64,000 nucleotides of DNA from Rhodoferax koreense (lineage in GTDB: Bacteria; Pseudomonadota; Gammaproteobacteria; Burkholderiales; Burkholderiaceae_C): assembly GCF_001955695.1 (NCBI RefSeq), contig NZ_CP019238.1:1-64000 (forward strand). Direction: 5' to 3'. Shown here one piece after another: positions 1,564 to 64,000 of this stretch (positions within the stretch are counted from its first letter, which is position 1; each line of letters begins with the position of its first letter). The position numbers and the translations under genes are program-made. Below the pieces are notes generated by a model. It did not search any database, was not told the DNA's origin, and saw only the letters and a list, made by a program, of their open reading frames with translations.

Positions 1564-1592
1564 GTTTTTCTCCTTGTGTAGAGCGAAGAGGG

Positions 1593-3433: not shown

Positions 3434-3555
3434 GATGCTTCTCCAGAAGAGTGCAGGGATTTGCACAGTGGAGAAGGTACGCAGGCAGACTTAGCTCGCA
3501 CTGAGCCGGGAAGTTTTCGCTCTCGCCGATGTAGTGTTATCGACTTCTAATAATT

Positions 3556-3581: not shown

Positions 3582-3662
3582 GATAAATCGCATGACGGCC
3601 TTTTTGGCCGGGGGTAGCATGACCGGACACTTTGCGTATACCCAAAATGACCGGAGGAACCC

Positions 3663-3693: not shown

Positions 3694-3753
3694 TGTCATT
3701 TTCAGAAGGCGACTGCACGGAATGTCAGGAGTCGGCTGCACGGCCTGTCGGGG

Positions 3754-3938
3754 CTATTTTTTGCGGGAGCGTTCCATGTGCAGAACAGCGTCAAGCAATG
3801 CCATTGAATCGCAGGTGTCGGATGCGTAGACCGTGCGCGTCCTTGGGTCATACGACACCATGACGAACGGGTCTGAGGTACGTTCCGTGCTCCGGGGCGC
3901 TTGACGCTTGGAGCGGTAGGTTCTGCATACCTCCCTCT
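3754..3938 (-). pseudogene. 3' part of a 127-residue hypothetical gene split by the IS3-family element
   Basis: On the minus strand this segment continues the frame that starts at 5436. Joining base 5238 to base 3938 (one TCT duplication copy removed) gives an open frame of 128 codons ending in TAG at 3754-3756. The C-terminal half is basic and contains the stretch FVMVSYDPRTRTVYASDTC. I do not recognise the family. An internal ATG in another frame gives no convincing gene here. Confidence 0.75.
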
Positions 3939-3977
3939 TGACCTTGCCCCTGTTTGCTGGAGTTCTTAGCCCACGGA

Positions 3978-4847
3978 TTACGCGGCCTTTTTACGCTGTG
4001 CCTCGTACCAGCGTTGCTCATATTGCATCGGGCTGAGGTATCCCAGCGTCGAATGCAATCGTCGGTGATTGTAGAAAGCCATCCAGTCCAGCACCGCGTC
4101 CATGGCCTCACGCCGGGTAGCGAACTTCCTGCCGTACAGGCTGGCCGTTTTCAATCTGCCCCAGAAGCTTTCGGTCGGTGCATTGTCCCAGCAGTTACCC
4201 TTCCTGCTCATCGATGAGCGCATCTCCCAGACACGTAGCGTGTCCTGGAATTCGTGGCTGCAATATTGACTGCCACGGTCGCTGTGGAAGATGAGGCCAG
4301 CCTCAGGGCGGCGCCGGAACCACGCCATGGTGAGCGCATCCTTGACTAGACTGGCTTGCATATGGGCTTGCATGCTCCAGCCCACCACCTGACGGCTGAA
4401 CAAATCAATGACGCCCGCCAGGTACAACCACCCCTCGTCGGTAGCGATGTAGGTGATGTCGCCACTCCACAACCGGTTGGGCGCCTCGGGATTGAAGCGC
4501 CGCTGCACGAGGTCGGGCGCCACCGGCAGACTGTGCCGGCTATCCGTGGTCACCACGAATTTGCGCTTGGTCTTGGCTTTGATGCCGTGCTGCTGCATCA
4601 GGTGACGTACCCGCTCTTTACCGACACGAATCCCGCGTGCAAGCAGCTCCTTGTGCATACGCGGCCAGCCGTACTCCTGCTTGACCTCTATGTGAATTGC
4701 ACGCATGTGGGCCAGTAAGGCTTCGTCGCTATGGCGGCCAGCAGGCCCTGGGCGAGCAGCGTCACGGCGGCGCTGCCAGACAAAATAGCCACTGGCGCTG
4801 ACCTCCAGCACTTCGCAGGAGATGCTCACTGGATACTGGTTTCTCAT
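3978..4847 (-). CDS. IS3-family transposase OrfB (DDE integrase domain)
   Basis: This 289-residue protein has an HTH_21-like N-terminal region (about 40-95) followed by an rve integrase core. The catalytic triad is visible as D130 (SGDITYIATD), D190 (FHSDRGSQY) and E226 (WDNAPTESFWG). Its ATG overlaps the orfA stop as ATGA, so it is either coupled to orfA or made as an OrfAB fusion by frameshifting; I see no clear A-rich slippery run at the junction. Length and motifs are normal for the family. Confidence 0.93.
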   Translation of the reverse strand: MRNQYPVSISCEVLEVSASGYFVWQRRRDAARPGPAGRHSDEALLAHMRAIHIEVKQEYGWPRMHKELLARGIRVGKERVRHLMQQHGIKAKTKRKFVVTTDSRHSLPVAPDLVQRRFNPEAPNRLWSGDITYIATDEGWLYLAGVIDLFSRQVVGWSMQAHMQASLVKDALTMAWFRRRPEAGLIFHSDRGSQYCSHEFQDTLRVWEMRSSMSRKGNCWDNAPTESFWGRLKTASLYGRKFATRREAMDAVLDWMAFYNHRRLHSTLGYLSPMQYEQRWYEAQRKKAA

Positions 4848-5170
4848 TTGGTAAATCCAGGCGTACCTCGCAGCGTGTCCTGCGCGAAGTACGCCGCGGC
4901 TTTTTTTGCGATGTCTCGCTCCATTCGAAGCCTGGCAACCTCAGCACGCAGGCGCGCCAGCTCCATTTGCTCAGGCGTGACGGATGCAGGTCTGTCTCCT
5001 ACACCGCCCACATCACCCTTGGCGCCGCGGCGTACCCAGTTGCTCAGGCTGGCCTTGGGGATACCCAATACCTTGGCTGTGGCAGCAATGGATTGCCCAC
5101 CCTTGACCTGACGCACCGCCTCCAATTTGTATTCCCGCGTGTACTGCGCTCGAACTTGCTTGTCTGACAT
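4844..5170 (-). CDS. IS3-family transposase OrfA (HTH)
   Basis: This 108-residue protein has a transposase_8-type helix-turn-helix in the first 60 residues (YTREYKLEAVRQVKGGQSIA... KASLSNWVRR) and a leucine-zipper-like helix at about 72-92 (PEQMELARLRAEVARLRMER). The start MSDKQVRAQ is preferred over an upstream in-frame ATG because family members start at this point. It would bind the IS ends and act with OrfB. Confidence 0.9.
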   Translation of the reverse strand: MSDKQVRAQYTREYKLEAVRQVKGGQSIAATAKVLGIPKASLSNWVRRGAKGDVGGVGDRPASVTPEQMELARLRAEVARLRMERDIAKKAAAYFAQDTLRGTPGFTK

Positions 5171-5234
5171 TTCTTGACTCCTTGGTCGTATTTTGAACAA
5201 GGCTCAAGAACTCCACTTTCCGGGGGCAAGGTCA

Positions 5235-5436
5235 TCTTTTCGGCAAGCTGCTGGCCGATCTTCTTCCAGTCAAAGAGATAGTCGGGATACAACCGGCGCA
5301 TGTCTCGCTTGTCCTGCGGCTCAAGCGTGTAATTGCGAATCCGCATGATGTTGTAATTGCTCCTGCCGACTTTGACCGTGAGATAGCAAAAGCCCTTTCT
5401 GGTCGTGACGAAGGCACTGCTTTGCTTGCGGCTCAT
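5235..5436 (-). pseudogene. 5' part of the split 127-residue hypothetical gene
   Basis: It starts with ATG at 5434-5436, overlapping the resolvase stop as ATGA, so it was probably translated together with the resolvase. The product begins MSRKQSSAFVTTRKGF and has a motif-like stretch NYNIMRIRNYTLEPQ. The IS entered after the codon for residue 67, and the fused frame now ends inside the IS. Its partner segment is 3754-3938. The function is unknown; the position suggests an accessory of the element. Confidence 0.75.
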
Positions 5437-5996
5437 GGTTGCTCGCTCCCGCCTTGCAGCGCGGCGTATAGGGCCGTCTTGCTCACCTTGAGCCGTGTAG
5501 CAGCCTCCCGGACGTTCAGCCCGTTGGCAATATGCTCCTGCGCCCGCTGCAACTTGTCGGCAGTGACAACCGGCTTGCGCCCGCCCTTGCGCCCGCGAGC
5601 GGCGGCAGCGGTCAGCCCGGCCTTGGTGCGCTCACGGATCAAGTCGCGCTCGAACTGGCCCAGCGCGCCGAACACGTGGAAGATGAGCCGCCCGCCCGGT
5701 GTGGTGGTGTCAATGCTTTCTGTCAGCGACCGGAAGCCGACGCCACGCGCTTCCAGCGCGCCGATTGTCTCGATGAGGTGTGGCATCGAGCGCCCGAGCC
5801 GATCCAGCCGCCAGACGGCCAGCACGTCGCCGTCGCGCAGATAGGCCAGCGCGGCGGCCAAGCCGGGCCTGTCGGCCTTGGCCCCGGAAGCCGTGTCCTC
5901 AAAGACGCGCTCGCAGCCCGCCTTGCGCAGTGCATCCGTCTGCAAGGCGGTGTCCTGTTCAGCCGTCGATACCCGCGCATAGCCGATGAGTGCCAT
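5433..5996 (-). CDS. tnpR: Serine recombinase/resolvase of the Tn402-ended element
   Basis: This 187-residue protein has the small serine resolvase layout: catalytic S10 in YARVSTAEQ, a conserved RLDRLGRS region near 67-74, the GQFERDLIRERT helix near 115-126, a GRKGGRK linker near 138 and a C-terminal Hin-type HTH (about 145-183). It would resolve cointegrates at a res site upstream (6000-6231). It differs clearly from the TniR remnant at 54707-55249, so the two Tn402-type elements carry different resolvases. The downstream 127-residue gene overlaps its stop codon. Confidence 0.92.
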   Translation of the reverse strand: MALIGYARVSTAEQDTALQTDALRKAGCERVFEDTASGAKADRPGLAAALAYLRDGDVLAVWRLDRLGRSMPHLIETIGALEARGVGFRSLTESIDTTTPGGRLIFHVFGALGQFERDLIRERTKAGLTAAAARGRKGGRKPVVTADKLQRAQEHIANGLNVREAATRLKVSKTALYAALQGGSEQP

Positions 5997-5999
5997 TAC

Positions 6000-6231
6000 C
6001 GCCCCTTTTGTCCGTTTTTCCGTCCGCCTATCATAATGTCCGACAACCCGTTATTCAAGCGCATTGCCGGACAGTGACCGGCTTGGCCGACTAATGATCG
6101 TTTGACGGACAAGGCGGCGCATGTGCCGCCATCCCGGCGCAATGGAACAGCGAACCGACTTAAGCCGGAACCGCCGAAAATTCCGGCGCGATACCGAGTA
6201 AGCCGGAATCCCAGATTTTTCCGGCACCGGG
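6000..6231. promoter_or_regulatory. Probable res site and promoter region of the element resolvase
   Basis: Upstream of the resolvase start are repeated TGTCCG/CGGACA arms: TTGTCCG near 6009, TGTCCGACA near 6038, CCGGACA near 6068 and GACGGACAA near 6103. Such spaced inverted arms are what serine resolvases bind. Farther right, GCCGGAA/TTCCGGC repeats (6160-6225) can form hairpins between the resolvase and the toxin gene. The exact subsites cannot be set by eye. Confidence 0.55.
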
Positions 6232-6552
6232 TCAAATAACGCCAACGACCAACAGGAGCGCCCTATCTATTGCTTTCATTCGCTCATCGTCGAGGCGGCC
6301 AAACGGTTCACTGATTTTGGTGCGCGGTAGCGTCGAGAGCTTGTCCACCATAACTTGCGATAGTGCGCGCAGCCCGTTAGCTGGATTCGGTTCCACGGTG
6401 ACGCGAAACGCGGCATTGCGCAGGTCGCTTGTCACTGGGCACAGCACAACGCTTTCCAAGTCGGTTAGTAGGTCTGATTGAACGATCAGGGCTGGTCGTG
6501 GTTTGCCGTAGTCACCCTGCAATGAAACCGTCACGAGGTCGCCTCGCTGCAT
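6232..6552 (-). CDS. MazF/PemK-family toxin (mRNA interferase)
   Basis: This 106-residue protein opens MQRGDLVTVSLQGDYGKPRP and continues ALIVQSD, the usual MazF/PemK N-terminal signature with the conserved basic loop. A second family motif, QVMVDKLSTLPR, lies near residue 68. Such toxins cut mRNA at short sites. The antitoxin gene upstream overlaps by one base (TGATG). An in-frame GTG one codon upstream is an alternative start. The pair sits inside the Tn402-ended element and may stabilise it or the plasmid. Confidence 0.9.
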   Translation of the reverse strand: MQRGDLVTVSLQGDYGKPRPALIVQSDLLTDLESVVLCPVTSDLRNAAFRVTVEPNPANGLRALSQVMVDKLSTLPRTKISEPFGRLDDERMKAIDRALLLVVGVI

Positions 6553-6767
6553 CACTCCCAGCCCTCAACGTGCGATGCCGCCTCTTCGGTGAAGCGCAAA
6601 ACCTCTGCTTCTGCTGGGTCGCCCTTCAGGCTTTGGCATTGCTTGCGCACTTGCGCCGTGAACTCAGGCGAACGGGTGTCCGGCACCCAAAACTGCACAG
6701 GCCGCAGCCCCGCCGCGCGCATCCGTTCGCGGTGTCGGGCTACCTTTGATTCGTGAATTGATGGCAT
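6552..6767 (-). CDS. MazE-like antitoxin (DUF3018-type)
   Basis: This 71-residue protein starts MPSIHESKVARHRERMRAAG and contains LRPVQFWVPDTRSPEF, the pattern of the DUF3018 antitoxins found next to MazF-like toxins. GGAG lies at normal distance before this ATG; two in-frame ATGs upstream (6776, 6788) are less likely. It should neutralise the toxin and repress the pair's promoter, which should lie between 6768 and about 6850. Confidence 0.82.
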   Translation of the reverse strand: MPSIHESKVARHRERMRAAGLRPVQFWVPDTRSPEFTAQVRKQCQSLKGDPAEAEVLRFTEEAASHVEGWE

Positions 6768-52165: not shown

Positions 52166-52759
52166 AACGTGGACATCCAGATGCGCACCAATGTGCCGCA
52201 CATCTTCGCCATCGGCGACATCGTGGGCCAGCCCATGCTGGCGCACAAGGCGGTGCACGAGGCGCATGTGGCAGCCGAAGTCATCGCCGGTGAACTGCAA
52301 GGCAACAAGGAACTGGCCGCTGCCGCCTTCAACGCCCGCGTCATCCCCAGCGTGGCCTACACCGACCCCGAAGTGGCCTGGGTGGGGCTCACCGAAGACC
52401 AGGCCAAGGCCCAGGGCGTCAAGGTCAAGAAAGGCCTGTTCCCCTGGGCCGCCTCCGGCCGTGCCATTGCCAACGGGCGCGACGAAGGCTTCACCAAGCT
52501 GCTGTTCGACGACAGCCCCGAAGCAGGATCAGGAGACGGCCATGCTGGCCGGGGCCACGGCAAGATCTTGGGCGGTGGCATGGTCGGCACCCACGCGGGC
52601 GACATGATCGGAGAGATCGCGCTGGCTATCGAGATGGGTGCCGACGCAGTGGACATCGGCAAGACCATCCACCCGCATCCAACCCTTGGCGAATCCATTG
52701 GCATGGCGGCGGAAGTGGCGCATGGCAGCTGCACGGATGTGCCGCCTGCGCGCAAGTAA
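52166..52759 (+). pseudogene. lpd: 3' fragment of a dihydrolipoamide dehydrogenase gene
   Basis: The frame enters directly from the IS1071 end and encodes about 196 residues of the C-terminal half of lipoamide dehydrogenase. It carries the FAD-domain motif HIFAIGDIV, the interface-domain start IPSVAYTDPEVAWVGLT and the active-site HPHPTLGE. The N-terminal two thirds, with the redox disulfide, are missing. Around residue 117-127 a stretch SGDGHAGRG looks inserted compared with the usual sequence. It is chromosomal debris, probably from a Burkholderiales host. Confidence 0.88.
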
Positions 52760-52782
52760 GTCCGCAGCCAAGCTACCCTGCC

Positions 52783-52812
52783 AAGGCCCGAACTGGCGAC
52801 GGTTCGGGCCTT
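52783..52812 (+). terminator. Hairpin after the lpd fragment
   Basis: AAGGCCCGAAC and GTTCGGGCCTT form an eleven-pair stem with an eight-base loop. It was probably the terminator of the original lpd gene; the T run is poor. Confidence 0.6.
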
Positions 52813-52841
52813 GTGCTTTGCGTACCCAAACAATCGCCGCA

Positions 52842-52867
52842 GAATACTGTGCATTTGTACAGTATTC
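52842..52867 (+). promoter_or_regulatory. LexA-box-like palindrome abutting the IS91-family transposase start
   Basis: GAATACTGT (52842-52850), eight bases, then ACAGTATTC (52859-52867) are perfect nine-base arms. The core CTG-N10-CAG matches the SOS-box pattern of gamma- and beta-proteobacteria. The ATG at 52868 follows at once, so a bound repressor would block transcription or initiation. LexA as the ligand is inferred. Confidence 0.6.
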
Positions 52868-54415
52868 ATGTCAGCCACTTCCAAGCCCAAGCTCTACAAC
52901 CCACGCCACCCCGAACGCACGCTGCTCTACCAAACGGTAGCCGAGCACTACGAGACCTGGCTAGAGTTGGCCAGCGCGGGTCAGTTCGACGGCCAGGGCG
53001 ACCACCACACCCCCAAGCCCTTCGTGCGCAAAGCGTTTGCCAAGTATCTTGAGTGCGGCATCTTTGCCCATGGCTTTGCCCGCGCTCGCTGCGGCGACTG
53101 TGGGCACGACTACTTCGTCGCTTTCTCCTGCAAAGGCCGGGGAGTCTGCCCCTCGTGCACCACCCGGCGCATGGTGGAGACAGCAGCGCACCTGAACGAT
53201 CACGTATTCCCCCGCCTGCCGGTGCGCCAGTGGGTGCTGTCGGTTCCCAAGCGGCTTCGTTACTTCATGCAGCGCGACGGAGCGGTGCTGAGCATGGTGC
53301 TGCGCATCTTTCTGCGGGTGATCGCACAAACTCTGCAGACCCACAGCCCCGGTGCGGCCCATATGGACAAGGCAGGCCTGCACATCGGTGCCATCGCCTT
53401 CATTCACCGATTCGGCTCCAGCCTCAATGAACACGTCCACTTCCACGTTTGTGTGGTGGACGGGGTGTTTGAGGAAGTGGAGGGCGAGGGCGATGCTGAT
53501 GCGACCCCTCGAATCTCATCGCCGGGTGTCATCTTTCACGCGGCCACCGGCATCGATGCGGCTACCGTGGCCCCAGTGCAGACCACACTGCAAAAACGCA
53601 TCCTGCGCGCCTTCGTTGCTCGGGGCCTGCTGGAGAACTGTGACGCCAAAGACATGCTGGGCTACAAACACAGCGGCTTCTCGGTGGATGCGGGGGTGTG
53701 CATCGAAGCCCACGACCGCGCTGCGCTGGAGCGGCTGCTGCGCTATTGCGCGCGTCCACCGTTTTCCATGGAGCGCCTACGCAAAGAGGGAAGCAAACTG
53801 GTGTACCGCTGCGGCAAGCAGCGCAGCGAACCCACCAGCGACAAGCGCGGTGCCAAGGTTGATGAGCTGCACCTCACACCGCTGGAACTGATCGACCGCA
53901 TCGCCGCGCTGGTGCCACCGCCACGCACCCACCGGCACCGCTACTTTGGTGTGCTGGCACCAAACTCGCCGCTGAGAGCGGCGGTAACGGCGCTGGCTCA
54001 GCCTGCTGCGTCGCAACCAGCCACGGTGGAGACTGCACAACCTGGCGCGGGCGTACCTGGGGTGGCGGCGCCGGGCAACGCGGCCACACCCACACCCGAA
54101 CCTGAAGCACGCCCGAAGCGAGCGGCGCATTACTTGTGGGCGGTGCTGATTGCCCGCATCTACGAGGCATTTCCGCTGCTGTGCCCCATGTGCGGTGGGC
54201 AGATGCGCATCATTGCCTTCATCACCCACAGCGCCGAAATCCGCCACATCCTGAACCACATCGGGGTGGAGTCTGCCCCCCCGCACATCACCCCGGCACG
54301 CGGGCCACCGCTGTGGGAGGGCTGCGACGCGCCGGTGGATGATGGTGCGCAAGGCGAGCCGGATTGGGATCTGGCAGCTCAACCCGACGAGGTAGACCAG
54401 CGCGTCAATTGGTGA
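52868..54415 (+). CDS. IS91/ISCR-type rolling-circle transposase (HUH)
   Basis: This 515-residue protein has an N-terminal zinc-binding region (CGDCGHDYF ... CKGRGVCPSC), the HUH motif in NEHVHFHVCVVDG near residue 195 and a tyrosine candidate in MLGYKHSGF near 265. An alanine/proline-rich linker leads to a second CPMCGGQM zinc motif near 440. This is the layout of IS91-family Rep-like transposases. The element ends are not certain; a CTTGCC/GGCAAG hairpin at about 54494-54512 downstream may belong to oriIS. The start at 52868 has no clear Shine-Dalgarno; an upstream in-frame start at 52811 is possible. Confidence 0.9.
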   Translation: MSATSKPKLYNPRHPERTLLYQTVAEHYETWLELASAGQFDGQGDHHTPKPFVRKAFAKYLECGIFAHGFARARCGDCGHDYFVAFSCKGRGVCPSCTTRRMVETAAHLNDHVFPRLPVRQWVLSVPKRLRYFMQRDGAVLSMVLRIFLRVIAQTLQTHSPGAAHMDKAGLHIGAIAFIHRFGSSLNEHVHFHVCVVDGVFEEVEGEGDADATPRISSPGVIFHAATGIDAATVAPVQTTLQKRILRAFVARGLLENCDAKDMLGYKHSGFSVDAGVCIEAHDRAALERLLRYCARPPFSMERLRKEGSKLVYRCGKQRSEPTSDKRGAKVDELHLTPLELIDRIAALVPPPRTHRHRYFGVLAPNSPLRAAVTALAQPAASQPATVETAQPGAGVPGVAAPGNAATPTPEPEARPKRAAHYLWAVLIARIYEAFPLLCPMCGGQMRIIAFITHSAEIRHILNHIGVESAPPHITPARGPPLWEGCDAPVDDGAQGEPDWDLAAQPDEVDQRVNW

Positions 54416-54706
54416 CCCAGTGAAGCGGCGGTATCCATCGCTGCGGGGAAGCAGCTGCGCGCGCGCCAGGCCCAAATGCATACTGCCTCCCAAGCTCTTG
54501 CCATTGAGCGGCAAGCGAGCGCTCAACCTTCCTTGGCCGAACGTGTTTCGAGGCCCAAAACTCGTGCCATACTTGGCCTCATGCGGTTGAATTTCCTATC
54601 CGTCAAGTTTCAGGCGAAAGTCGCCACCATGGCGGTGGGCGATCCGCGCGAGGGCAAGACGCCGCTCGGCGCAGTGGTTGACGCCAAGACCGTTGGCTAT
54701 CCGTTG
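54416..54706. other. Junction DNA between the IS91-type transposase and the tniR remnant
   Basis: No complete gene is seen. The stretch probably contains the downstream end of the IS91-type element (hairpin near 54494) and a foreign 75-bp open segment (54629-54703, starting MAVGDPREGKTPLGAV) fused in frame to tniR. I do not recognise the source of that segment. Confidence 0.5.
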
Positions 54707-55249
54707 ATCGCTGCCGGCGTCGATCCGGCCCATCTCTACGAGGATCAAGCGTCGGGCAAACGCGAGGATCGTCCCGGCCTGTTGAGCTGCCTGAAGGCGC
54801 TACGACCGGGGGATACGTTGATGGTGTGGAAACTTGACCGGCTCGGGCGCGATCTGCGGCATCTCATCAACACCGTGCATGACCTGACCGGGCGAGGCAT
54901 CGGTCTGAAAGTGTTGACTGGGCACGGTGCAGCCATTGACACCACGACGGCCGCCGGCAAGTTGGTCTTCGGCATCTTCGCCGCGCTGGCCGAGTTCGAG
55001 CGCGAACTGATTACCGAGCGCACGATTGCAGGATTGGCTTCGGCGAGGGCGCGCGGTAGGAAGGGCGGCCGGCCCTTCAAGATGACTGCCGCCAAGTTGC
55101 GGCTGGCGATGGCCGCTATGGGGCAGCCCGAAACCAAGGTCGGCGATCTATGTCAGGAACTGGGCATCACAAGACAGACCTTGTATCGGCACATTTCGCC
55201 GAAGGGCGAGTTGCGCCTTGATGGCGAGAAACTGCTCAGTCAAGTTTGA
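54707..55249 (+). pseudogene. tniR: tniR resolvase of a Tn402/Tn5053-family transposon, 5'-truncated
   Basis: From LIAAGVDPAHLYEDQASG to the C-terminus (LRLDGEKLLSQV) the product follows the TniR (TniC) resolvase. The first 25 or so residues, which carry the catalytic RVS serine, are missing and replaced by unrelated sequence that keeps the frame open upstream (to 54476). The remnant should be inactive. It shows that the operon to the right was carried by a Tn402/Tn5053-type transposon whose tniA, tniB and tniQ were deleted. Confidence 0.82.
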
Positions 55250-55315
55250 TGACAGGACAGCGGTTACTGTAGACGAATCGTGACGACTGGTTGAGTCAGT
55301 ATGTCCTACCTGTTA

Positions 55316-55747
55316 TCACTTGAACGCCAATAACAGAACGCCTCCGGCGACCATCGAAATGCCGGACCACTCCCTCAGTGACGGGCGTTCGCCCAAAAAG
55401 GCGAAAGCAAATACCGCCACCAGGACAAGACTGAGTTTATCCACTGGCGCAACCTTGGATGCATCGCCAATCTTGAGTGCGCGGAAGTAGCAGACCCACG
55501 ATGCCCCTGTCGCCAAGCCGGACAGCCCGAGAAAAAGCCATGTCTTGGGTGATAACTCCAAGGGGTTGGTCCATTTCCCCGTGTAGGCAACAAACGCCGA
55601 CAGGACGACGATGATGATGGCCGTGCGGATCAAGGTGGCCAGATCGGAATCAACTCCCTGAATGCCAACCTTGGCAAAAATAGCCGTCAGTGCCGCAAGG
55701 ATAGCGGACAGCAAAGCCCAATAAAACCACCCCGCCGAATTAACCAT
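55316..55747 (-). CDS. Small EamA/DMT-family transporter
   Basis: This 143-residue protein has five hydrophobic helices and a single EamA domain (FRALKIGDASKVAPVDKLSL, FAFLGERPSLREWSG), half the size of usual ten-helix DMT exporters, so it probably works as a dimer. The substrate cannot be told. It is the last gene of the leftward operon, 28 bases after the sensor kinase stop, and convergent with tniR. Confidence 0.85.
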   Translation of the reverse strand: MVNSAGWFYWALLSAILAALTAIFAKVGIQGVDSDLATLIRTAIIIVVLSAFVAYTGKWTNPLELSPKTWLFLGLSGLATGASWVCYFRALKIGDASKVAPVDKLSLVLVAVFAFAFLGERPSLREWSGISMVAGGVLLLAFK

Positions 55748-55775
55748 TTAGCCTGCCTCCGCGTTTCTCAAACCG

Positions 55776-57128
55776 CTACCGCATGGGAGCGATAACGGCA
55801 ACATTTAAGCCAGTTTGCTTCTCTTGATCTGAGAAGTCGAGGCGGATTTCAGCACCGATGCGATTGGCAATCGTCTGGACAATGGATAGTCCCAGACCCG
55901 AGCCGATCTGCTCGCTCCCCAGCGTGCGGTAGAAGGGATCAAACACTCGATCCCGTTCAGCCAACGGAATGCCAGGCCCACTGTCCTGAATACGTAGTAC
56001 GACCTTCCCTTCCGAAACACCCACAGAAAGATCAACACGCCCTCCCTCTGGCGTGTAGCGGATGGCGTTATCGACTAGGTTCTTGACCACAGCGATCATG
56101 TCCAGCTCGCTTGCCCACACTTCGGCGTCCAGCGCGCCTTCGACACCGATGTCGATGTGCTTGGCCTCGGCCAGCGGCATGAGGTCTTCCAGCACGCGGC
56201 GGTAGATGCTCTGGACAGATACAGGCGACTTCGGCAGGTCGGTGGCCGACTGTGCCTTGGCCAAGGTCAAGAGTTGATCGAGCAGGCTGCGGCCGCGCTC
56301 GATCCCTTGGCGCAAAACCGTCAGCCGTTCGCGCGCCACGCTGGACATTTCCGCTTCCGCGAGCCGTTCTGCTTGCAGCGACATGGCTGTCAGCGGCGAA
56401 CGTAGCTCGTGCGCGGCATCCGCCACAAAGCGGCGCTGAGATTCCATCGACTGGCTGACACGAGCGAGCAGGCGATTGATCGCCACGACAAACGGACGTA
56501 CCTCGACCGGAAGGTGGCGGTCTTCGACGGGATGCAGTTCCTGCTCTGCCCGCTGGTCTATTTCCTTGGACAGCGCCGCGATGGGCTGGAACATCTTGCG
56601 CACCAGGTCAGCAACGATCAACAGCAGCACCGGCACGAGAATCAAGAAAGGCATCACCGTGCGCAGTGCCCCGTCGCGGGCAATTTCATTGCGGAAACCG
56701 GACTCCTGAGCCACAGCAATGCGTTCGCCGCTCGCCGTGGTCTTGACCAGCACGCGAAACGTCTCGCCACCAACTTCCAGCGTGTGCAATCCATCCGCCA
56801 AGGTCGCCGGGAGCGGGAGCACGCCTCCTGCATCCACGCCTACCGTAGAGGGACTGACCTCACCCAAGCGCTGGACGATCACGCGCGACTCTTCATCGAC
56901 ATCCTTGAGACGGATATCGGTGGTTGGCACGGCAGGCAACAAGCGCTGGCGATCCATGAGCTGCGCCACCTGGCGCAGTACATCGTCCTGTAGTTCGTGC
57001 GCTTCATCGAAGGCGGACAGGAACGAGAATACGCCCGCCACAACGGCCACCACGAGGATGGCCAGCGACAAGGTGAAGGACAGCTTGAGCTGAACTGATT
57101 CGTTCAAGCGCCTTTTGAGACCATCCAT
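55776..57128 (-). CDS. Sensor histidine kinase of the cargo operon
   Basis: This 450-residue protein has two membrane helices (about 17-38 and 158-176) with a 120-residue periplasmic sensor between them. A HAMP-like linker follows, then H240 in FVADAAHELRSPLTAM and an HATPase_c domain with N, G1 and G2 boxes (NLVDNAIRYTPEGG, DSGPGIP, GSGLGLSIV). The layout is that of QseC/PmrB/TctE-type kinases. The periplasmic part is short and has no obvious metal-binding cluster. It overlaps the regulator gene by 25 bases. Confidence 0.92.
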   Translation of the reverse strand: MDGLKRRLNESVQLKLSFTLSLAILVVAVVAGVFSFLSAFDEAHELQDDVLRQVAQLMDRQRLLPAVPTTDIRLKDVDEESRVIVQRLGEVSPSTVGVDAGGVLPLPATLADGLHTLEVGGETFRVLVKTTASGERIAVAQESGFRNEIARDGALRTVMPFLILVPVLLLIVADLVRKMFQPIAALSKEIDQRAEQELHPVEDRHLPVEVRPFVVAINRLLARVSQSMESQRRFVADAAHELRSPLTAMSLQAERLAEAEMSSVARERLTVLRQGIERGRSLLDQLLTLAKAQSATDLPKSPVSVQSIYRRVLEDLMPLAEAKHIDIGVEGALDAEVWASELDMIAVVKNLVDNAIRYTPEGGRVDLSVGVSEGKVVLRIQDSGPGIPLAERDRVFDPFYRTLGSEQIGSGLGLSIVQTIANRIGAEIRLDFSDQEKQTGLNVAVIAPMR

Positions 57129-57769
57129 CCGACCCCCCTGACGTTCTTGATGACCTCGCCACCGAGCTTGCGCCGCAGTGCGTGGATTAGATATTCGACG
57201 GCATTGCTTTCGACTTCTTCCCCCCAGCCATAGATGCGATCCTCCAGTTCGCTGCGCGAAAGGATGGCACCAGGCCGAACCAGCAAGGCTTGCAGTAACG
57301 AGAACTCGCGGTTGGACAGTTGCACTTGGGGGCCATCATTGGCACAAGCCTCTTTGGTGGCCGGGTCAAGCGTCACCACGCCGTTGCTGAGCACGGGAGC
57401 TGCCGTGCCACCTTTGCGCCTCAGGACGGCGCGCATCCGGGCCAGCAGTTCCGCCATCTGAAAGGGCTTGGACACATAGTCGTCGGCCCCGCCATCCAGG
57501 CCGCGCAGGCGATCATCCAGACCATCGCGAGCCGTGATGATGAGCAGGGGAACCGGGTTGTCCTTGGCTCGGATGCTGGCCAGCACCTCCAGCCCATCCT
57601 TTCCGGGCAGACCGAGGTCGAGTAGCACCAGGTCGTAATGCTGGCAGCCCAGCGTGGTGAGCGCCGTCTGCCCGTCCTTCACCCAGTCGGCGGCGTAGGA
57701 CGCATCCTTCAATGCGCCCTGGATCGCGTCACCGATCATGGGATCGTCTTCGACCAGCAATACCCGCAC
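57104..57769 (-). CDS. OmpR-family response regulator of the cargo operon
   Basis: This 221-residue protein has a receiver domain with D51 as phosphoacceptor (LVLLDLGLPG) and K101 (DYVSKPFQ), then a winged-helix Trans_reg_C domain (about 125-218, ending VRGVGWMVSKG). It starts with GTG after GGGAGGG. It resembles QseB/PmrA-type regulators and should control the operon promoter near 60881-61028, though I could not identify its binding repeats. Confidence 0.93.
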   Translation of the reverse strand: MRVLLVEDDPMIGDAIQGALKDASYAADWVKDGQTALTTLGCQHYDLVLLDLGLPGKDGLEVLASIRAKDNPVPLLIITARDGLDDRLRGLDGGADDYVSKPFQMAELLARMRAVLRRKGGTAAPVLSNGVVTLDPATKEACANDGPQVQLSNREFSLLQALLVRPGAILSRSELEDRIYGWGEEVESNAVEYLIHALRRKLGGEVIKNVRGVGWMVSKGA

Positions 57770-57791
57770 TCACCCTCCCTTCAATTGTTGT

Positions 57792-58550
57792 TCAATGCGC
57801 CGTCCTGGCGGCTCGCTGCCTGAACAGCAGGATTGCCACCACTATGAAGGTGAGCAGCGCGGCCGACGCTGAATAGCGGCTCAGCGCCAAGCCGCCCGCG
57901 CTCACCGGCTTGTCCAGAAAATCGCCGACCACGGCACCTAGCGGACGCGTCAGGATGAACGCCGCCCAGAACAGCAGCGTGCGGGACACGCTCGTCCAGT
58001 AGTAGGCTGCCACGACCAGCGCGAGCAGCCCGCCGAACACGACGGCCGCACCCGTGTATCCCAGGCCCGCCGTATCAGCCGTCCAGTCGCCCAGCGCGGT
58101 GCCCAGCGTCTGGGAGAACATAATCGTCAACCAGTAAAAGGCTTCCGCCTTGGGCGAGCTGACCGTGCTTACCGACACGGAGCCAAGGGTGCGATGCCAG
58201 ACGAAGAGAGAGCCAAGCAGCAAGGCCAGCAGCAAGCTCGAACCGCCAGCGTACCCGATTCCGAGCGATCGGTCCGCGAAATCGGCCAGCGTCGTGCCGA
58301 CCGTGGTTGTCGCGATGATGGTCGTCCAGTACAGGAAGGGGTGGAAGTCCTTGGCCTTGACCTGCGCGACCACGGCAGCCAGGAAGATCGCCGCGAAGAT
58401 GGCTGTACCGACCAGGTAGCCCAGGTTCATGGACATCGAAACCGCATCACCGCCAGTTTCACCGAGCGTCGTGGCGGCAATCTTGATGAGCCAGAAGCCC
58501 AGCGTAACTTCGGGCACCTTGGCCAAAGCGTGTTCAGTGGATGTTTTCAT
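57792..58550 (-). CDS. COG4705-like polytopic membrane protein A
   Basis: This 252-residue protein has about eight transmembrane helices and a repeated pattern: VPEVTLGFWLIKIAATTLGE, FYWLTIMFSQTLGTALGDW and LLFWAAFILTRPLGAVVGDF each hold an FW...T..G..GD motif, so the protein seems built from several copies of a two-helix unit. I place it with the predicted membrane-anchored proteins of COG4705, whose function is not known to me. A paralogue lies two genes upstream (59039-59821). It starts nine bases after the lipoprotein stop. Confidence 0.8.
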   Translation of the reverse strand: MKTSTEHALAKVPEVTLGFWLIKIAATTLGETGGDAVSMSMNLGYLVGTAIFAAIFLAAVVAQVKAKDFHPFLYWTTIIATTTVGTTLADFADRSLGIGYAGGSSLLLALLLGSLFVWHRTLGSVSVSTVSSPKAEAFYWLTIMFSQTLGTALGDWTADTAGLGYTGAAVVFGGLLALVVAAYYWTSVSRTLLFWAAFILTRPLGAVVGDFLDKPVSAGGLALSRYSASAALLTFIVVAILLFRQRAARTAH

Positions 58551-58559
58551 GGGGCGCGC

Positions 58560-59009
58560 TCACTTTCCTTCGAGCGTGTTAAAGGTTTTCAGCAGGGCAT
58601 CCATCGCAGCCTTGCAGTCAGCCTGGCTTGGCGTGTCTGCGCGAAGCGTCGCAAGCGACTTGTCGATGGCCTTGTCGAGCAGATGCCAGTCATCTGCCGC
58701 GCGCGGTTTGAGTCCGGCTTCGGCCGAATCCCATGCGACTTCCAAGTCCTTGATGCGTGACTTGGCAGCAGGCAGATCGCCCTTGTCAACGATGGCGGCG
58801 ACATCAGTGGCGATGCTGCGGAAGGCCGACAGGTCGCCCAGCTTGGATGCAGTTTTGACTTGCAAGGCCGAGACAGTCTGGGCCGGTGTAGTTGATGCCG
58901 AGCTTGCGTTGTTCTGATCGGCAGATTTGGAACAACCAGCCGCGAGGGCCAAGAGCACGGCGGCCGAAATAGCCGCAACAGAGCGAGCGATTGAGTGCTG
59001 TATGAACAT
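58560..59009 (-). CDS. Small putative lipoprotein between the two COG4705-like genes
   Basis: This 149-residue protein has a signal peptide ending in the lipobox ALAAGC (C26), then a serine/alanine linker and a helical domain (about 45-149). [20 protein letters not shown] is followed by [14 protein letters not shown]. Such helical histidine/acid-containing periplasmic domains occur beside metal-response genes, but I do not recognise this one. AAGGAG precedes the ATG; a much longer frame upstream is a shadow of the neighbouring gene. Confidence 0.82.
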
Positions 59010-59038
59010 GTTTTTCTCCTTGTGTAGAGCGAAGAGGG

Positions 59039-59821
59039 TTATTCGACGAGCTGGGCCGAGCGGCGTCCATTCATGCCGATCTGCGCGACGGCCACCAGCA
59101 TGACGATCACCGTGAGGAACAAGGCGCTTGTCCACATGGCACCCATGCCAAGGCCACCATAAGTCTTGGCCTGCGTCAGCAAGTCGCCGAGTGCGGCCCC
59201 GAAGGGGCGGGTCAAGATGTAGGCGATCCAGAAGGTCAGAACGGCGTTGCCGCCCATGCGCCAGGCGGTATAGGTGATGCCAATCAGCACACCGAACGCC
59301 ACCGCGCCCCAGGTAAAGCCCAAGCCCAATGCCTCGGTCGCCAAATCGCCAGCAGCCGTGCCCAGCGCGAACGTGCAGAGGATGGCAGCCCAATAGAACA
59401 GCTCCCGGCTGCGCGTCACAATGTCGTGAATGGACAGGGTGCGCTCGATCCGATACCAGACGAAGAAGATCGCGGCGAGCGCAACGGCGAACGCCGAGGT
59501 GCTGATGTACAGGCTGACGCCAAGGCCATCGGTCAGCAGATCGGTGATCTGGGTGCCGACCACGCTGACCAGTACCACCGTCAGCCAGTAAATCCAAGGG
59601 GTATAGCGTCGGGTGCGCAACTGCATGAACAAGGCGGCCGCCAACAGGGCAGCCATGACGGTTCGAGTCACGCCTTGCCCCCACCCTGCGTTGACCGCCA
59701 GGAAATCGGCTCCCGTCTCGCCCACCGTGGTGGACATGATCTTGATGATCCAGAACGACAGCGCGACTTCCGGGACTTTATTGAGCCAGCCAGTGGTGCT
59801 GCTCGTGGGCAATTTGTTCAT
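59039..59821 (-). CDS. COG4705-like polytopic membrane protein B
   Basis: This 260-residue protein has about eight membrane helices and the same repeated motif as protein A ([60 protein letters not shown]). Overall similarity to protein A is clear but partial, so the duplication is old. GGAGAACACC precedes the ATG at 59819-59821. The pair may form a heteromeric membrane complex. Confidence 0.8.
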
Positions 59822-59891
59822 GGTGTTCTCCTGCCGGGGGTGAAATGGTTTGCCAGCAGTTTGAACATGCTGACTTAGCCCGCCCATAGGC

Positions 59892-60488
59892 TCACTCGCG
59901 CACCCATCCAAGCGCGATCAACCCGCTGAAAAGCCGCCGATGGATTCCGGTGGAAAGTTGATAACTTGGCAATAGATACCAGTGTGCTTCACGTAACGTC
60001 AGCCAGGCACAGATTGCAGCAACGGCGATGGCCCCGAGCATGTCGAATGGGAAGTGCACTCCAAGGTAGATGCGCGCCCAGGCAATGGGAACGCCCAGCA
60101 AAGCCAAAGTCACGCCTGCAATTCGTGGGCCTCGTTGCAGCGCGAGGCTGAAGGCAACCGCCCACCACAGCGTCAGGTGATCGCTTGGGAAAGACGAATC
60201 GGCAACATGAGGGATGAGGGTGTGACCCAGGCCGATCATGAAAGGTCGAGGATGCAACCAAGCCAGGCCGATGATCTGGTTGATGAGCAGGCCCAGCAAT
60301 CCCGATGCGCTAGCAACGAGCATCGTCTTGCGGGTAGGCTCGCCGCCGCGAAGCCAGCCGATGCCGATCAGGAGTGGAACCGCCCAGATGAGCTGTTCGG
60401 CAAAGAAGGTGGCCAACGTCAGAGCCAAAGCACTGGGATGCTCCGGTGCGTTGAGCCAGAGAAAAAATGTATGGTTGAGTGATTCCAT
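59892..60488 (-). CDS. PAP2-family membrane phosphatase
   Basis: This 198-residue protein has about five membrane helices and the three PAP2 motifs: LHPRPF (motif 1 region), SSFPSDH (motif 2 with catalytic histidine) and ARIYLGVHFPFD (motif 3). It looks like undecaprenyl-diphosphate phosphatase (BcrC/YbjG type) or a lipid phosphatase. It should act on a membrane lipid phosphate at the periplasmic face. The ATG at 60486-60488 follows GGAGACC; an upstream ATG at 60533 is unlikely. Confidence 0.88.
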   Translation of the reverse strand: MESLNHTFFLWLNAPEHPSALALTLATFFAEQLIWAVPLLIGIGWLRGGEPTRKTMLVASASGLLGLLINQIIGLAWLHPRPFMIGLGHTLIPHVADSSFPSDHLTLWWAVAFSLALQRGPRIAGVTLALLGVPIAWARIYLGVHFPFDMLGAIAVAAICAWLTLREAHWYLLPSYQLSTGIHRRLFSGLIALGWVRE

Positions 60489-60544
60489 GAGGTCTCCGGG
60501 CCGGATCGCCTCCGAGGGAAACGATCCGGCCATACTGTCGGGAG

Positions 60545-60880
60545 TCAGTCCCGCTTGTCGTGGTCATCATCGTGATCCGCCTTGTCCTCGGCAGACGAGA
60601 TGACCGTGCCCTTGTCGGCATCGACCCGGACATCGAAGACCTTGGCCCCGCTGACGACTTCCACGTCGTAGACCCAGCCTTGCTTCGAGTTCTCGTACTC
60701 GGCGCGTGACGCCTTGCCATTGGCGTGCTGCTCGGCGACGGTGACCGCCTGTGTGAGGGGAATCTTGGCCTTGCTGATTGCCAGGGCGTCGTTTTCCATA
60801 CCGCCATTGGCGGCGTAGGCGACCGCGCCGGTTGCAGCGATGGCGACGGCCAGAAGGGAAAGTTTGGTGTAGCGGTACAT
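60545..60880 (-). CDS. PepSY-like secreted small protein, first gene of the operon
   Basis: This 111-residue protein has a signal peptide (MYRYTKLSLLAVAIAATGAV, cleaved after YAA) and one PepSY-type domain (ISKAKIPLTQAVTVAEQHAN, GWVYDVEVVSGAKVFDVRVD, GTVISS). It ends in an Asp/His-rich tail (DKADHDDDHDKRD) that could bind metal ions. Secreted PepSY proteins often lie beside two-component systems and may tune the sensor. GGAGAAG precedes the ATG. Confidence 0.85.
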   Translation of the reverse strand: MYRYTKLSLLAVAIAATGAVAYAANGGMENDALAISKAKIPLTQAVTVAEQHANGKASRAEYENSKQGWVYDVEVVSGAKVFDVRVDADKGTVISSAEDKADHDDDHDKRD

Positions 60881-61002
60881 GATGCTTCTCCAGAAGAGTG
60901 CAGGGATTTGCACAGTGGAGAAGGTACGCAGGCAGACTTAGCTCGCACTGAGCCGGGAAGTTTTCGCTCTCGCCGATGTAGTGTTATCGACTTCTAATAA
61001 TT
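60881..61002 (-). promoter_or_regulatory. Probable promoter region of the eight-gene cargo operon
   Basis: The 122 bases between the PepSY-like gene and the Tn402-type inverted repeat are the only sizeable upstream space of the operon. I could not pick out a reliable -35/-10 pair or regulator repeats; a CAGTGCGAGCTAAGTCT stretch near 60940 is one weak candidate. Confidence 0.45.
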
Positions 61003-61028
61003 GGTGCAGTCGTCTTCTGAAAATGACA
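61003..61028 (-). repeat. Tn402/Tn5053-type terminal inverted repeat of the cargo transposon
   Basis: Identical to 3556-3581. It marks the right edge of the transposon whose left edge was lost near IS1071 and the IS91-type element. It lies 81 bases before the presumed parA start codon, i.e. in the parA promoter/res area. Confidence 0.87.
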
Positions 61029-61109
61029 GATAAATCGCATGACGGCCTTTTTGGCCGGGGGTAGCATGACCGGACACTTTGCGTATACCCAAAATGACCG
61101 GAGGAACCC

Positions 61110-61140
61110 ATGACCAGCCGCAACGGCTACTTCCCAGGCA
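61110..61140 (+). pseudogene. parA: 5' fragment of parA (second copy)
   Basis: Same as 3663-3693: ATG, ten codons, then the Tn402-ended element. Confidence 0.8.
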
Positions 61141-61200
61141 TGTCATTTTCAGAAGGCGACTGCACGGAATGTCAGGAGTCGGCTGCACGGCCTGTCGGGG

Positions 61201-61385
61201 CTATTTTTTGCGGGAGCGTTCCATGTGCAGAACAGCGTCAAGCAATGCCATTGAATCGCAGGTGTCGGATGCGTAGACCGTGCGCGTCCTTGGGTCATAC
61301 GACACCATGACGAACGGGTCTGAGGTACGTTCCGTGCTCCGGGGCGCTTGACGCTTGGAGCGGTAGGTTCTGCATACCTCCCTCT
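61201..61385 (-). pseudogene. 3' part of the split 127-residue gene (second copy)
   Basis: Same as 3754-3938. Confidence 0.75.
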
Positions 61386-61424
61386 TGACCTTGCCCCTGT
61401 TTGCTGGAGTTCTTAGCCCACGGA

Positions 61425-62294
61425 TTACGCGGCCTTTTTACGCTGTGCCTCGTACCAGCGTTGCTCATATTGCATCGGGCTGAGGTATCCCAGCGTCGAA
61501 TGCAATCGTCGGTGATTGTAGAAAGCCATCCAGTCCAGCACCGCGTCCATGGCCTCACGCCGGGTAGCGAACTTCCTGCCGTACAGGCTGGCCGTTTTCA
61601 ATCTGCCCCAGAAGCTTTCGGTCGGTGCATTGTCCCAGCAGTTACCCTTCCTGCTCATCGATGAGCGCATCTCCCAGACACGTAGCGTGTCCTGGAATTC
61701 GTGGCTGCAATATTGACTGCCACGGTCGCTGTGGAAGATGAGGCCAGCCTCAGGGCGGCGCCGGAACCACGCCATGGTGAGCGCATCCTTGACTAGACTG
61801 GCTTGCATATGGGCTTGCATGCTCCAGCCCACCACCTGACGGCTGAACAAATCAATGACGCCCGCCAGGTACAACCACCCCTCGTCGGTAGCGATGTAGG
61901 TGATGTCGCCACTCCACAACCGGTTGGGCGCCTCGGGATTGAAGCGCCGCTGCACGAGGTCGGGCGCCACCGGCAGACTGTGCCGGCTATCCGTGGTCAC
62001 CACGAATTTGCGCTTGGTCTTGGCTTTGATGCCGTGCTGCTGCATCAGGTGACGTACCCGCTCTTTACCGACACGAATCCCGCGTGCAAGCAGCTCCTTG
62101 TGCATACGCGGCCAGCCGTACTCCTGCTTGACCTCTATGTGAATTGCACGCATGTGGGCCAGTAAGGCTTCGTCGCTATGGCGGCCAGCAGGCCCTGGGC
62201 GAGCAGCGTCACGGCGGCGCTGCCAGACAAAATAGCCACTGGCGCTGACCTCCAGCACTTCGCAGGAGATGCTCACTGGATACTGGTTTCTCAT
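61425..62294 (-). CDS. IS3-family OrfB (second copy)
   Basis: Same as 3978-4847, with the D130/D190/E226 triad. Confidence 0.92.
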   Translation of the reverse strand: MRNQYPVSISCEVLEVSASGYFVWQRRRDAARPGPAGRHSDEALLAHMRAIHIEVKQEYGWPRMHKELLARGIRVGKERVRHLMQQHGIKAKTKRKFVVTTDSRHSLPVAPDLVQRRFNPEAPNRLWSGDITYIATDEGWLYLAGVIDLFSRQVVGWSMQAHMQASLVKDALTMAWFRRRPEAGLIFHSDRGSQYCSHEFQDTLRVWEMRSSMSRKGNCWDNAPTESFWGRLKTASLYGRKFATRREAMDAVLDWMAFYNHRRLHSTLGYLSPMQYEQRWYEAQRKKAA

Positions 62295-62617
62295 TTGGTA
62301 AATCCAGGCGTACCTCGCAGCGTGTCCTGCGCGAAGTACGCCGCGGCTTTTTTTGCGATGTCTCGCTCCATTCGAAGCCTGGCAACCTCAGCACGCAGGC
62401 GCGCCAGCTCCATTTGCTCAGGCGTGACGGATGCAGGTCTGTCTCCTACACCGCCCACATCACCCTTGGCGCCGCGGCGTACCCAGTTGCTCAGGCTGGC
62501 CTTGGGGATACCCAATACCTTGGCTGTGGCAGCAATGGATTGCCCACCCTTGACCTGACGCACCGCCTCCAATTTGTATTCCCGCGTGTACTGCGCTCGA
62601 ACTTGCTTGTCTGACAT
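62291..62617 (-). CDS. IS3-family OrfA (second copy)
   Basis: Same as 4844-5170. Confidence 0.9.
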   Translation of the reverse strand: MSDKQVRAQYTREYKLEAVRQVKGGQSIAATAKVLGIPKASLSNWVRRGAKGDVGGVGDRPASVTPEQMELARLRAEVARLRMERDIAKKAAAYFAQDTLRGTPGFTK

Positions 62618-62681
62618 TTCTTGACTCCTTGGTCGTATTTTGAACAAGGCTCAAGAACTCCACTTTCCGGGGGCAAGGTCA

Positions 62682-62883
62682 TCTTTTCGGCAAGCTGCTG
62701 GCCGATCTTCTTCCAGTCAAAGAGATAGTCGGGATACAACCGGCGCATGTCTCGCTTGTCCTGCGGCTCAAGCGTGTAATTGCGAATCCGCATGATGTTG
62801 TAATTGCTCCTGCCGACTTTGACCGTGAGATAGCAAAAGCCCTTTCTGGTCGTGACGAAGGCACTGCTTTGCTTGCGGCTCAT
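62682..62883 (-). pseudogene. 5' part of the split 127-residue gene (second copy)
   Basis: Same as 5235-5436. Confidence 0.75.
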
Positions 62884-63443
62884 GGTTGCTCGCTCCCGCC
62901 TTGCAGCGCGGCGTATAGGGCCGTCTTGCTCACCTTGAGCCGTGTAGCAGCCTCCCGGACGTTCAGCCCGTTGGCAATATGCTCCTGCGCCCGCTGCAAC
63001 TTGTCGGCAGTGACAACCGGCTTGCGCCCGCCCTTGCGCCCGCGAGCGGCGGCAGCGGTCAGCCCGGCCTTGGTGCGCTCACGGATCAAGTCGCGCTCGA
63101 ACTGGCCCAGCGCGCCGAACACGTGGAAGATGAGCCGCCCGCCCGGTGTGGTGGTGTCAATGCTTTCTGTCAGCGACCGGAAGCCGACGCCACGCGCTTC
63201 CAGCGCGCCGATTGTCTCGATGAGGTGTGGCATCGAGCGCCCGAGCCGATCCAGCCGCCAGACGGCCAGCACGTCGCCGTCGCGCAGATAGGCCAGCGCG
63301 GCGGCCAAGCCGGGCCTGTCGGCCTTGGCCCCGGAAGCCGTGTCCTCAAAGACGCGCTCGCAGCCCGCCTTGCGCAGTGCATCCGTCTGCAAGGCGGTGT
63401 CCTGTTCAGCCGTCGATACCCGCGCATAGCCGATGAGTGCCAT
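62880..63443 (-). CDS. tnpR: Serine resolvase of the Tn402-ended element (second copy)
   Basis: Same as 5433-5996. Confidence 0.92.
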   Translation of the reverse strand: MALIGYARVSTAEQDTALQTDALRKAGCERVFEDTASGAKADRPGLAAALAYLRDGDVLAVWRLDRLGRSMPHLIETIGALEARGVGFRSLTESIDTTTPGGRLIFHVFGALGQFERDLIRERTKAGLTAAAARGRKGGRKPVVTADKLQRAQEHIANGLNVREAATRLKVSKTALYAALQGGSEQP

Positions 63444-63678
63444 TACCGCCCCTTTTGTCCGTTTTTCCGTCCGCCTATCATAATGTCCGACAACCCGTTA
63501 TTCAAGCGCATTGCCGGACAGTGACCGGCTTGGCCGACTAATGATCGTTTGACGGACAAGGCGGCGCATGTGCCGCCATCCCGGCGCAATGGAACAGCGA
63601 ACCGACTTAAGCCGGAACCGCCGAAAATTCCGGCGCGATACCGAGTAAGCCGGAATCCCAGATTTTTCCGGCACCGGG

Positions 63679-63999
63679 TCAAATAACGCCAACGACCAAC
63701 AGGAGCGCCCTATCTATTGCTTTCATTCGCTCATCGTCGAGGCGGCCAAACGGTTCACTGATTTTGGTGCGCGGTAGCGTCGAGAGCTTGTCCACCATAA
63801 CTTGCGATAGTGCGCGCAGCCCGTTAGCTGGATTCGGTTCCACGGTGACGCGAAACGCGGCATTGCGCAGGTCGCTTGTCACTGGGCACAGCACAACGCT
63901 TTCCAAGTCGGTTAGTAGGTCTGATTGAACGATCAGGGCTGGTCGTGGTTTGCCGTAGTCACCCTGCAATGAAACCGTCACGAGGTCGCCTCGCTGCAT
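63679..63999 (-). CDS. MazF/PemK-family toxin (second copy)
   Basis: Same as 6232-6552. The start codon is the last complete codon of the window, so the antitoxin is not seen in this copy. Confidence 0.9.
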   Translation of the reverse strand: MQRGDLVTVSLQGDYGKPRPALIVQSDLLTDLESVVLCPVTSDLRNAAFRVTVEPNPANGLRALSQVMVDKLSTLPRTKISEPFGRLDDERMKAIDRALLLVVGVI

Positions 64000-64000
64000 C

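Follow-up and report, generated by a model that had tools for sequence, protein, structure and literature searches.

The eight-gene envelope operon on a Rhodoferax koreense plasmid contig as the mmf cargo of a Tn6048 remnant

Which system is encoded by eight closely spaced, same-strand genes on a Rhodoferax koreense contig, and what might it do for its host? The genes occupy positions 60880-55316 of the window, by which we mean the whole stretch analysed, the first 64,000 nucleotides of contig NZ_CP019238.1 (assembly GCF_001955695.1), and a first-pass annotation made from the letters alone had read them as an undescribed envelope system carried by a Tn402/Tn5053-type transposon. The carrier was recognized correctly and proves to be Tn6048; the novelty was not borne out. 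The set is virtually certain to be the mmf ("multiple metal response") operon of Tn6048, whose gene order, names and transposon are already published (PMC4914505, PMC12029693, PMC2864759). Table 1 of PMC4914505 names mmfA, mmfB, mmfC1, mmfD, mmfC2, mmfR, mmfS and an EamA gene on plasmids pHB44 and pBS64, a cassette that the paper attributes to Tn6048. PMC2864759, which puts the element and its eight genes in print by 2010 at the latest, describes Tn6048 of C. metallidurans and its induction by zinc and lead. The same eight genes appear in section 3.5.6 of PMC12029693, with three identical copies in strain CH34, induction by lead and zinc, and a function called unknown as late as 2025, and PMC11952213 records Tn6048 on laboratory RP4, pAKD16 and pMOL98. 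Since mmf is published as Tn6048 cargo, mercury resistance and integrons, given in the first-pass annotation as the known cargos of this transposon family, are not the sole ones. What is new here is a predicted, nearly genome-unique binding site for MmfR, the pairing of MmfC1 with MmfC2, and a structural model; the system itself was known.

The genes stand in the order mmfA-B-C1-D-C2-R-S-eamA, all co-oriented on the minus strand, and every reading frame has intact start and stop codons. The intergenic gaps from mmfA to eamA measure 56, 70, 29, 9, 22, -25 and 28 bp, mmfR and mmfS overlapping by 25 bp. A Pfam scan returned PepSY, PAP2, DUF347, DUF347, Response_reg with Trans_reg_C, HisKA with HATPase_c, and EamA; together with the coordinates, the intact frames and the NCBIfam comparisons, this confirms the gene families first proposed. 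The mmf operons of Tn6048 in CH34, pAKD16, pHB44 and pBS64 share the same eight genes, order and orientation at 98.6-100% DNA identity.

The transposon has fared less well than its cargo. Window positions 54705-61028 match Tn6048 at 98.7% identity, with 6,324 of 10,403 bp left, whereas the intact element of pAKD16 (L014:3427-13829, 10,403 bp, 100% identical to that of CH34) has matching 27-bp ends and is flanked by ATTTG, a putative 5-bp target duplication. A terminal inverted repeat is present on one side only; on the other, as the first-pass annotation had seen, lies a tniR remnant truncated at its 5' end, inside which homology stops at 54705, and no match to tniA, tniB or tniQ of the pAKD16 element was found in the window. 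The operon is therefore cargo of an immobile Tn6048 remnant and not of a working transposon. The missing tniABQ may have been lost through an IS91-type insertion. Among the other loci searched for these genes, tniABQR accompanies mmf in L013 and L014, is interrupted in L012 and is partial at a contig end in L032. The mmf operons of L029 (Paenacidovorax) and L031 (Tibeticola) lack tniABQ, and their TniR-like matches are no more than distant (34% and 32%). Two further features of the flanks deserve record. A second Tn402/Tn5053-type inverted repeat at 61141-61167, in the opposite orientation and three mismatches from the Tn6048 end, is followed by an IS3-type insertion (~61425-62647) and then a resolvase gene (62880-63443); between IS1071 and the tniR remnant, positions 52169-54415 contain a fragment resembling lpdA and a transposase gene of IS91 type (ISPps1).

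Table 1. Features of the mmf operon, its promoter region and the Tn6048 remnant (window coordinates)
Feature	Position	Strand	Description
mmfA	60880-60545	-	secreted PepSY protein, 111 aa, Asp/His-rich tail; Pfam PepSY 40.1 bits
mmfB	60488-59892	-	putative BcrC/YbjG-type PAP2 undecaprenyl-diphosphatase, 198 aa; Pfam PAP2 50.3 bits
mmfC1	59821-59039	-	DUF347/COG4705 membrane protein, C1 group by best BLAST score; four DUF347 stretches
mmfD	59009-58560	-	small exported protein with a lipobox in this copy; four-helix bundle predicted
mmfC2	58550-57792	-	DUF347/COG4705 membrane protein, C2 group, 8 predicted transmembrane helices; four DUF347 stretches
mmfR	57769-57104	-	OmpR-family response regulator nearest PmrA/QseB; GTG start
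mmfS	57128-55776	-	sensor histidine kinase, QseC-like
eamA	55747-55316	-	half-size EamA-type transporter; Pfam EamA 85 bits
Tandem box	60952-60936	-	CTCAGT-N5-CTAAGT upstream of mmfA, predicted MmfR site
-10-like hexamer	60926-60921	-	TACCTT, 9 bp after box
Single half-site	59869-59881	-	GGGCTAAGTCAGC, upstream of mmfC1
Tn6048 terminal inverted repeat	61002-61028	-	Tn402/Tn5053-type, sole one left; identical to both Tn6048 ends in pAKD16
tniR remnant of Tn6048	54705-55249	+	first ~70 bp lost

Against pHB44 of Variovorax paradoxus (L011, the first 49,000 of 57,450 bp), the window aligns at 99.994% over 31,145 bp with 0 mismatches and, in a second alignment that overlaps the first on a duplicated part, at 99.947% over 24,417 bp; the operon stretch is also 100% identical in two Pseudomonas plasmids, and the window is therefore to be taken as pHB44 or a near-identical plasmid. 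Positions 57441-64000 are repeated by positions 1-6553 (99.83% identity, 0 mismatches, 11 gaps), a repeat that the first-pass annotation had missed: the contig is a circular plasmid whose overlapping assembly ends were left untrimmed. The first ~3.5 kb of the window accordingly hold a frame-broken copy of mmf genes, with DUF347 matches at 382-2309 that are an assembly duplicate. DUF347 matches in the host genome (5.9 Mb, 3 contigs) are confined to this contig, and 11 of the 1,796 plasmid records with any match contain at least 80% of the operon stretch.

How far the genes travel together was assessed in the 80 genome_contigs loci nearest MmfC2, of which the 45 with full flanks were counted, comparing loci that carry a given gene within 4 kb with those that carry it at 5.5-9.5 kb. 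Response regulators were found near in 17 loci and far in 5 (Fisher 0.006), histidine kinases in 14 and 5 (0.04), a second DUF347 gene in 11 and 1 (0.004), PepSY in 7 and 0 (0.01), and PAP2 in 6 and 1. In a less biased sample, DUF347 occurs in 23 of 200 genomes of the phylum, the present one included; the 22 others yielded 24 loci from 21 genomes (G036 and other fragments excluded), 11 with a response regulator within 3 kb and 13 without. From the two sets of counts, DUF347-regulator-kinase is therefore a recurrent module, and DUF347 often stands apart from it. The order PepSY-PAP2-DUF347-DUF347-regulator-kinase recurs in a Thiobacillaceae and a Geobacter metagenome-assembled genome (L033, L042). 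All eight genes are present in L012, L013, L014, L029, L031 and L032, and where a host of these loci is named it belongs to Burkholderiales; as far as the sampled sequences reach, the full set is seen only in Burkholderiales and on plasmids. An Azospirillum plasmid (L016:363-6458) shows a different arrangement, regulator-kinase-DedA-PAP2-DedA-PepSY facing MmfD-like and C1-like DUF347 genes, with a possible link to undecaprenyl-phosphate handling.

What controls the operon? The QseB/PmrA-type assignment of the regulator is borne out by the best model scores, QseBC and PmrAB ranking highest for MmfR and MmfS, yet the NCBIfam equivalog cut-offs are missed (PmrA 209.7 of 330 bits, QseB 202.9 of 345, QseC 216.2 of 475), as are those of the CzcRS/CopRS/SilRS models TIGR01387 (167 vs 279.2) and TIGR01386 (148.9 vs 292.55). 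Upstream of mmfA lies a tandem box that, given its position relative to the -10-like hexamer, overlaps the place of the -35 element, as with activators of the PhoB/PhoP/PmrA type; PmrA boxes likewise are tandem half-sites with an 11-bp period. By its sequence and distribution, this box is probably the binding site of MmfR. A loose pattern matched 48 times in 2,005,188 bp of loci, as against 2, 4 and 3 times in Markov resamples, and 35 of the 48 boxes precede PepSY, PAP2, DUF347 or response regulator genes, although the 48 are not independent because several loci hold near-identical operon copies. Across 30 distinct sites from related loci, position 2 of the -10 is A in 29 and its final position T in 24, two letters that lay outside the search pattern of that count. 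A strict pattern that includes the -10 letters matched twice in the host's own genome, both times at the mmfA promoter (once in the assembly duplicate), and 15 times, in 10 genomes, among 14 others (63 Mb, rounded sizes), where a reversed control pattern gave 0 matches. In fourteen of those 15, the 3-kb locus also encodes an Mmf-type homologue (A, B, C1, C2, or a regulator of 62-67% identity). One of the fourteen, L144, has its box between genes for a C1-like and a DegP-like protein and directed at the DegP-like one; the box of the fifteenth (L150) is directed at a regulator only 37% identical to MmfR. The 14 genomes had been picked from loci in which a loose box was already seen, and the informative part is therefore the scarcity of matches elsewhere.

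Several observations weigh against too simple a view of this box. It is missing in 15 of 35, 10 of 11 and, on plasmids, 3 of 8 regulator-bearing loci of three sets, no strict match occurs in 4 of the 14 genomes, and its association with regulators is partly built in because a box in front of the regulator itself counts. Other genes behind boxes, most found with the loose pattern, encode cytochrome b561 (L056, L058), a BhsA-like protein (L018), an RND adaptor (L070), a DegP-like protease (L041) and CopK (L066), which by family appear to be envelope or metal-stress functions. In the last case, a Comamonadaceae contig (L066:2956-3361), the CopK-like gene behind the box immediately follows the kinase gene in an operon of mmf type. 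A related arrangement lies beside mcr-9 on an IncHI2A plasmid of Enterobacter hormaechei (L024:5897-8859), where the same box stands ahead of a C1-like DUF347 gene (55% identical to MmfC1) that is directly followed by a qseBC-like pair whose regulator and kinase are 66.8% and 43.1% identical to MmfR and MmfS. Unlike mmf, this locus has one DUF347 gene and no PAP2 or PepSY match within 12.6 kb, and it adjoins mcr-9 and wbuC; the box pattern was not found ahead of mcr-9 itself in that stretch.

The two DUF347 proteins, MmfC1 and MmfC2, share ~36% identity, and other DUF347 proteins sort to one or the other by best BLAST score, an assignment that is not tree-based; so defined, C1-like and C2-like genes co-occur in 16 of the 80 loci, and such pairs are also found on Bradyrhizobium and Nostoc plasmids. 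Structure prediction, suggested in the first-pass annotation for the pair, was carried through for MmfC2 as a single protein: the AlphaFold2 model has 8 helices (predicted local distance difference test, pLDDT, 91.8; predicted template modelling score, pTM, 0.88), with loop charges that favour both termini inside, the last outer loop being a weak exception. In an alignment of 56 proteins, which leaves out L028:4249-4974, K23, E31, D35, D90, E136, D155, R202 and D210 (MmfC2 numbering) are invariant, and each odd-numbered helix has a conserved motif whose last residue is Asp (D35, D90, D155, D210), joined by E31, K23 and R202. MmfC2 has no solved relative by sequence, and comparison of its model with the PDB, with known metal-exporter folds and MFS in view, gave no clear match.

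Among the remaining envelope proteins, MmfB scores above the Pfam cut-off for PAP2 and retains intact motifs RP..PSDH..ARIYLGVHFPFD, and RP, PSDH and R..H..D, which we take to be the PAP2 catalytic set, are all present; its score against the undecaprenyl-diphosphatase equivalog NF008813, 131.7 bits, lies below the 229-bit cut-off. The Asp/His-rich tail of MmfA is also found in several relatives. MmfD falls in no Pfam family, with weak, scattered Pfam matches among its relatives; a list cleared of alternative-frame ORFs places MmfD in 15 loci, 8 of them within the 80. Its model reaches a pLDDT of 76.7 overall and >90 in the bundle part. It had been called a lipoprotein, which fits the lipobox of this copy but not some relatives, whose signal peptides, read by eye, have none.

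What, then, would the operon do? We give an even chance to a working model in which mmf is a metal-stress envelope operon under MmfRS. MmfS would sense excess divalent metal (zinc, lead) or the resulting envelope damage and phosphorylate MmfR, which would bind the tandem CTAAGT box at the mmfA -35 region and switch the operon on, mmfRS included. In the periplasm, MmfB would remove phosphate from undecaprenyl pyrophosphate, which speeds carrier recycling (bacitracin tolerance) and sets phosphate free. MmfC1 and MmfC2 would together make up a transporter of the inner membrane, with divalent metal ions as its most likely substrate, and MmfA, with its acidic, His-bearing tail, and MmfD would act periplasmically as metal or protein binders. 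The signal of MmfS, the docking of MmfR on the box, the cargo of MmfC1/MmfC2 and their union in a heteromer, and the roles of MmfA, MmfD and EamA are what we infer; the operon, box, C1-C2 pairing and catalytic motifs draw support from sequence, and MmfC2 from its model. A phosphatase paired with a membrane exporter under lead stress has reportedly a precedent in the pbr lead resistance system (PbrA exporter, PbrB phosphatase), from which mmf differs in having, by Pfam, no P-type ATPase among its eight genes, and a DUF347 pair with two-component control instead, pbr being controlled differently.

The envelope or metal theme of the first-pass annotation finds support. Of the description that would have refuted its claim of novelty, a published gene order with a known phenotype, the order is in print and the phenotype is only partly known. 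In PMC4914505, the bacitracin minimal inhibitory concentration (MIC), measured at the level of whole plasmids, rose from 40 to 300 ug/ml with pHB44; in E. coli K-12, pMBUI8, said to hold mmfA and mmfB only, raised it from 40 to 200. A metal-transporter role has been proposed for DUF347 (PMC4531530, PMC9756366), and operons of UppP with DUF347 are reported to go up under lead (PMC4531530); CDF and P-type ATPase genes lie near a Deinococcus DUF347 gene. Tentatively, and with somewhat less than even confidence, we take MmfC1/MmfC2 for a metal transporter. Against this and the wider model stand a number of points. The cluster on pBS64 had no measurable bacitracin effect in the account of PMC4914505, the cured host being already resistant, and the authors who studied pHB44 inferred iron and vanadium import, the opposite direction to export. 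C. gilardii NOV2-1, which has mmf, equalled CCUG38401T, which does not, in growth with Cd, Co and Zn according to PMC12029693, and no phenotype is known to have been assigned by experiment to any single mmf gene. Classical metal exporters are not among the best 25 of 121 families near DUF347 (150 proteins), and RND proteins are among the best 25 of 152 families in the far set (116 of 150 sampled far proteins scanned).

The strongest competitor, which we nonetheless consider unlikely, has MmfC1/MmfC2 carry undecaprenyl phosphate, or another phospholipid-type substrate, across the membrane, recycling the product of MmfB while metals merely disturb the carrier cycle. Neighbourhoods speak for it: DUF347 adjoins PAP2 and DedA in Azospirillum, DedA in Rhodococcus, EptA-PAP2-DgkA in Methylophaga and three PAP2 genes in Hymenobacter, PAP2 lies within 4 kb in 6 of the 45 counted loci and further out in 1 of 45, and PAP2 (3 of 150) and EptA (2 of 150) occur by Pfam among the near proteins and not among the best 25 of the 152 far-set families. 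The bacitracin phenotype (PMC4914505) agrees with it as well. Transport of a lipid carrier sits less easily with the zinc and lead induction (PMC2864759), the acidic-rich invariant core of DUF347, its frequent occurrence without lipid-related partners, and its reported presence in eukaryotic microalgae. Neighbourhood evidence thus leans slightly toward lipid and expression evidence toward metal, neither line being decisive; we favour the metal transporter.

Still less probable is that the operon brings no present benefit and hitch-hikes on the plasmid as a remnant, as the loss of tniABQ and one Tn6048 end and the lack of a growth effect in C. gilardii NOV2-1 (PMC12029693) might suggest, since none of the eight frames is broken and L029 and L031 are genome contigs that carry the operon although they lack tniABQ. 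We regard as very improbable the proposal of the pHB44 authors that the cluster helps capture ferrichrome-bound iron and vanadium, based on the changed growth of V. paradoxus HB44 at different iron and vanadium levels depending on the presence of pHB44 (PMC4914505), since that comparison involves the whole plasmid, none of the eight genes encodes by Pfam an outer-membrane receptor, TonB or a siderophore function, induction is by zinc and lead, and the ferrichrome link rests in part on dip2, a gene outside the operon with claimed FhuA features (PMC4914505) that is annotated in the record as part of an IS3 family transposase.

It is enticing, if doubtful, to speculate that mmf represents a mobile version of a broader envelope-stress regulon, controlled by a QseB/PmrA-branch regulator through the nearly genome-unique tandem CTAAGT box and comprising DUF347 pairs, PAP2 and PepSY proteins, in some hosts cytochrome b561, DegP-like proteases and CopK, and the DUF347-regulator-kinase set beside mcr-9. 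DUF347 pairs might then be an unrecognised type of transporter, with four repeated hairpins surrounding an invariant acidic core, exporting divalent metal to the periplasm to be trapped there by phosphate that PAP2 enzymes release. DUF347 is a large family, still uncharacterised, with members in bacteria and microalgae, and the function of the cluster becomes testable through the predicted promoter box, the pairing of C1 with C2 and the confident model of a DUF347 protein. Carried on broad-host-range plasmids and induced by zinc and lead, mmf may link metal stress to bacitracin tolerance.

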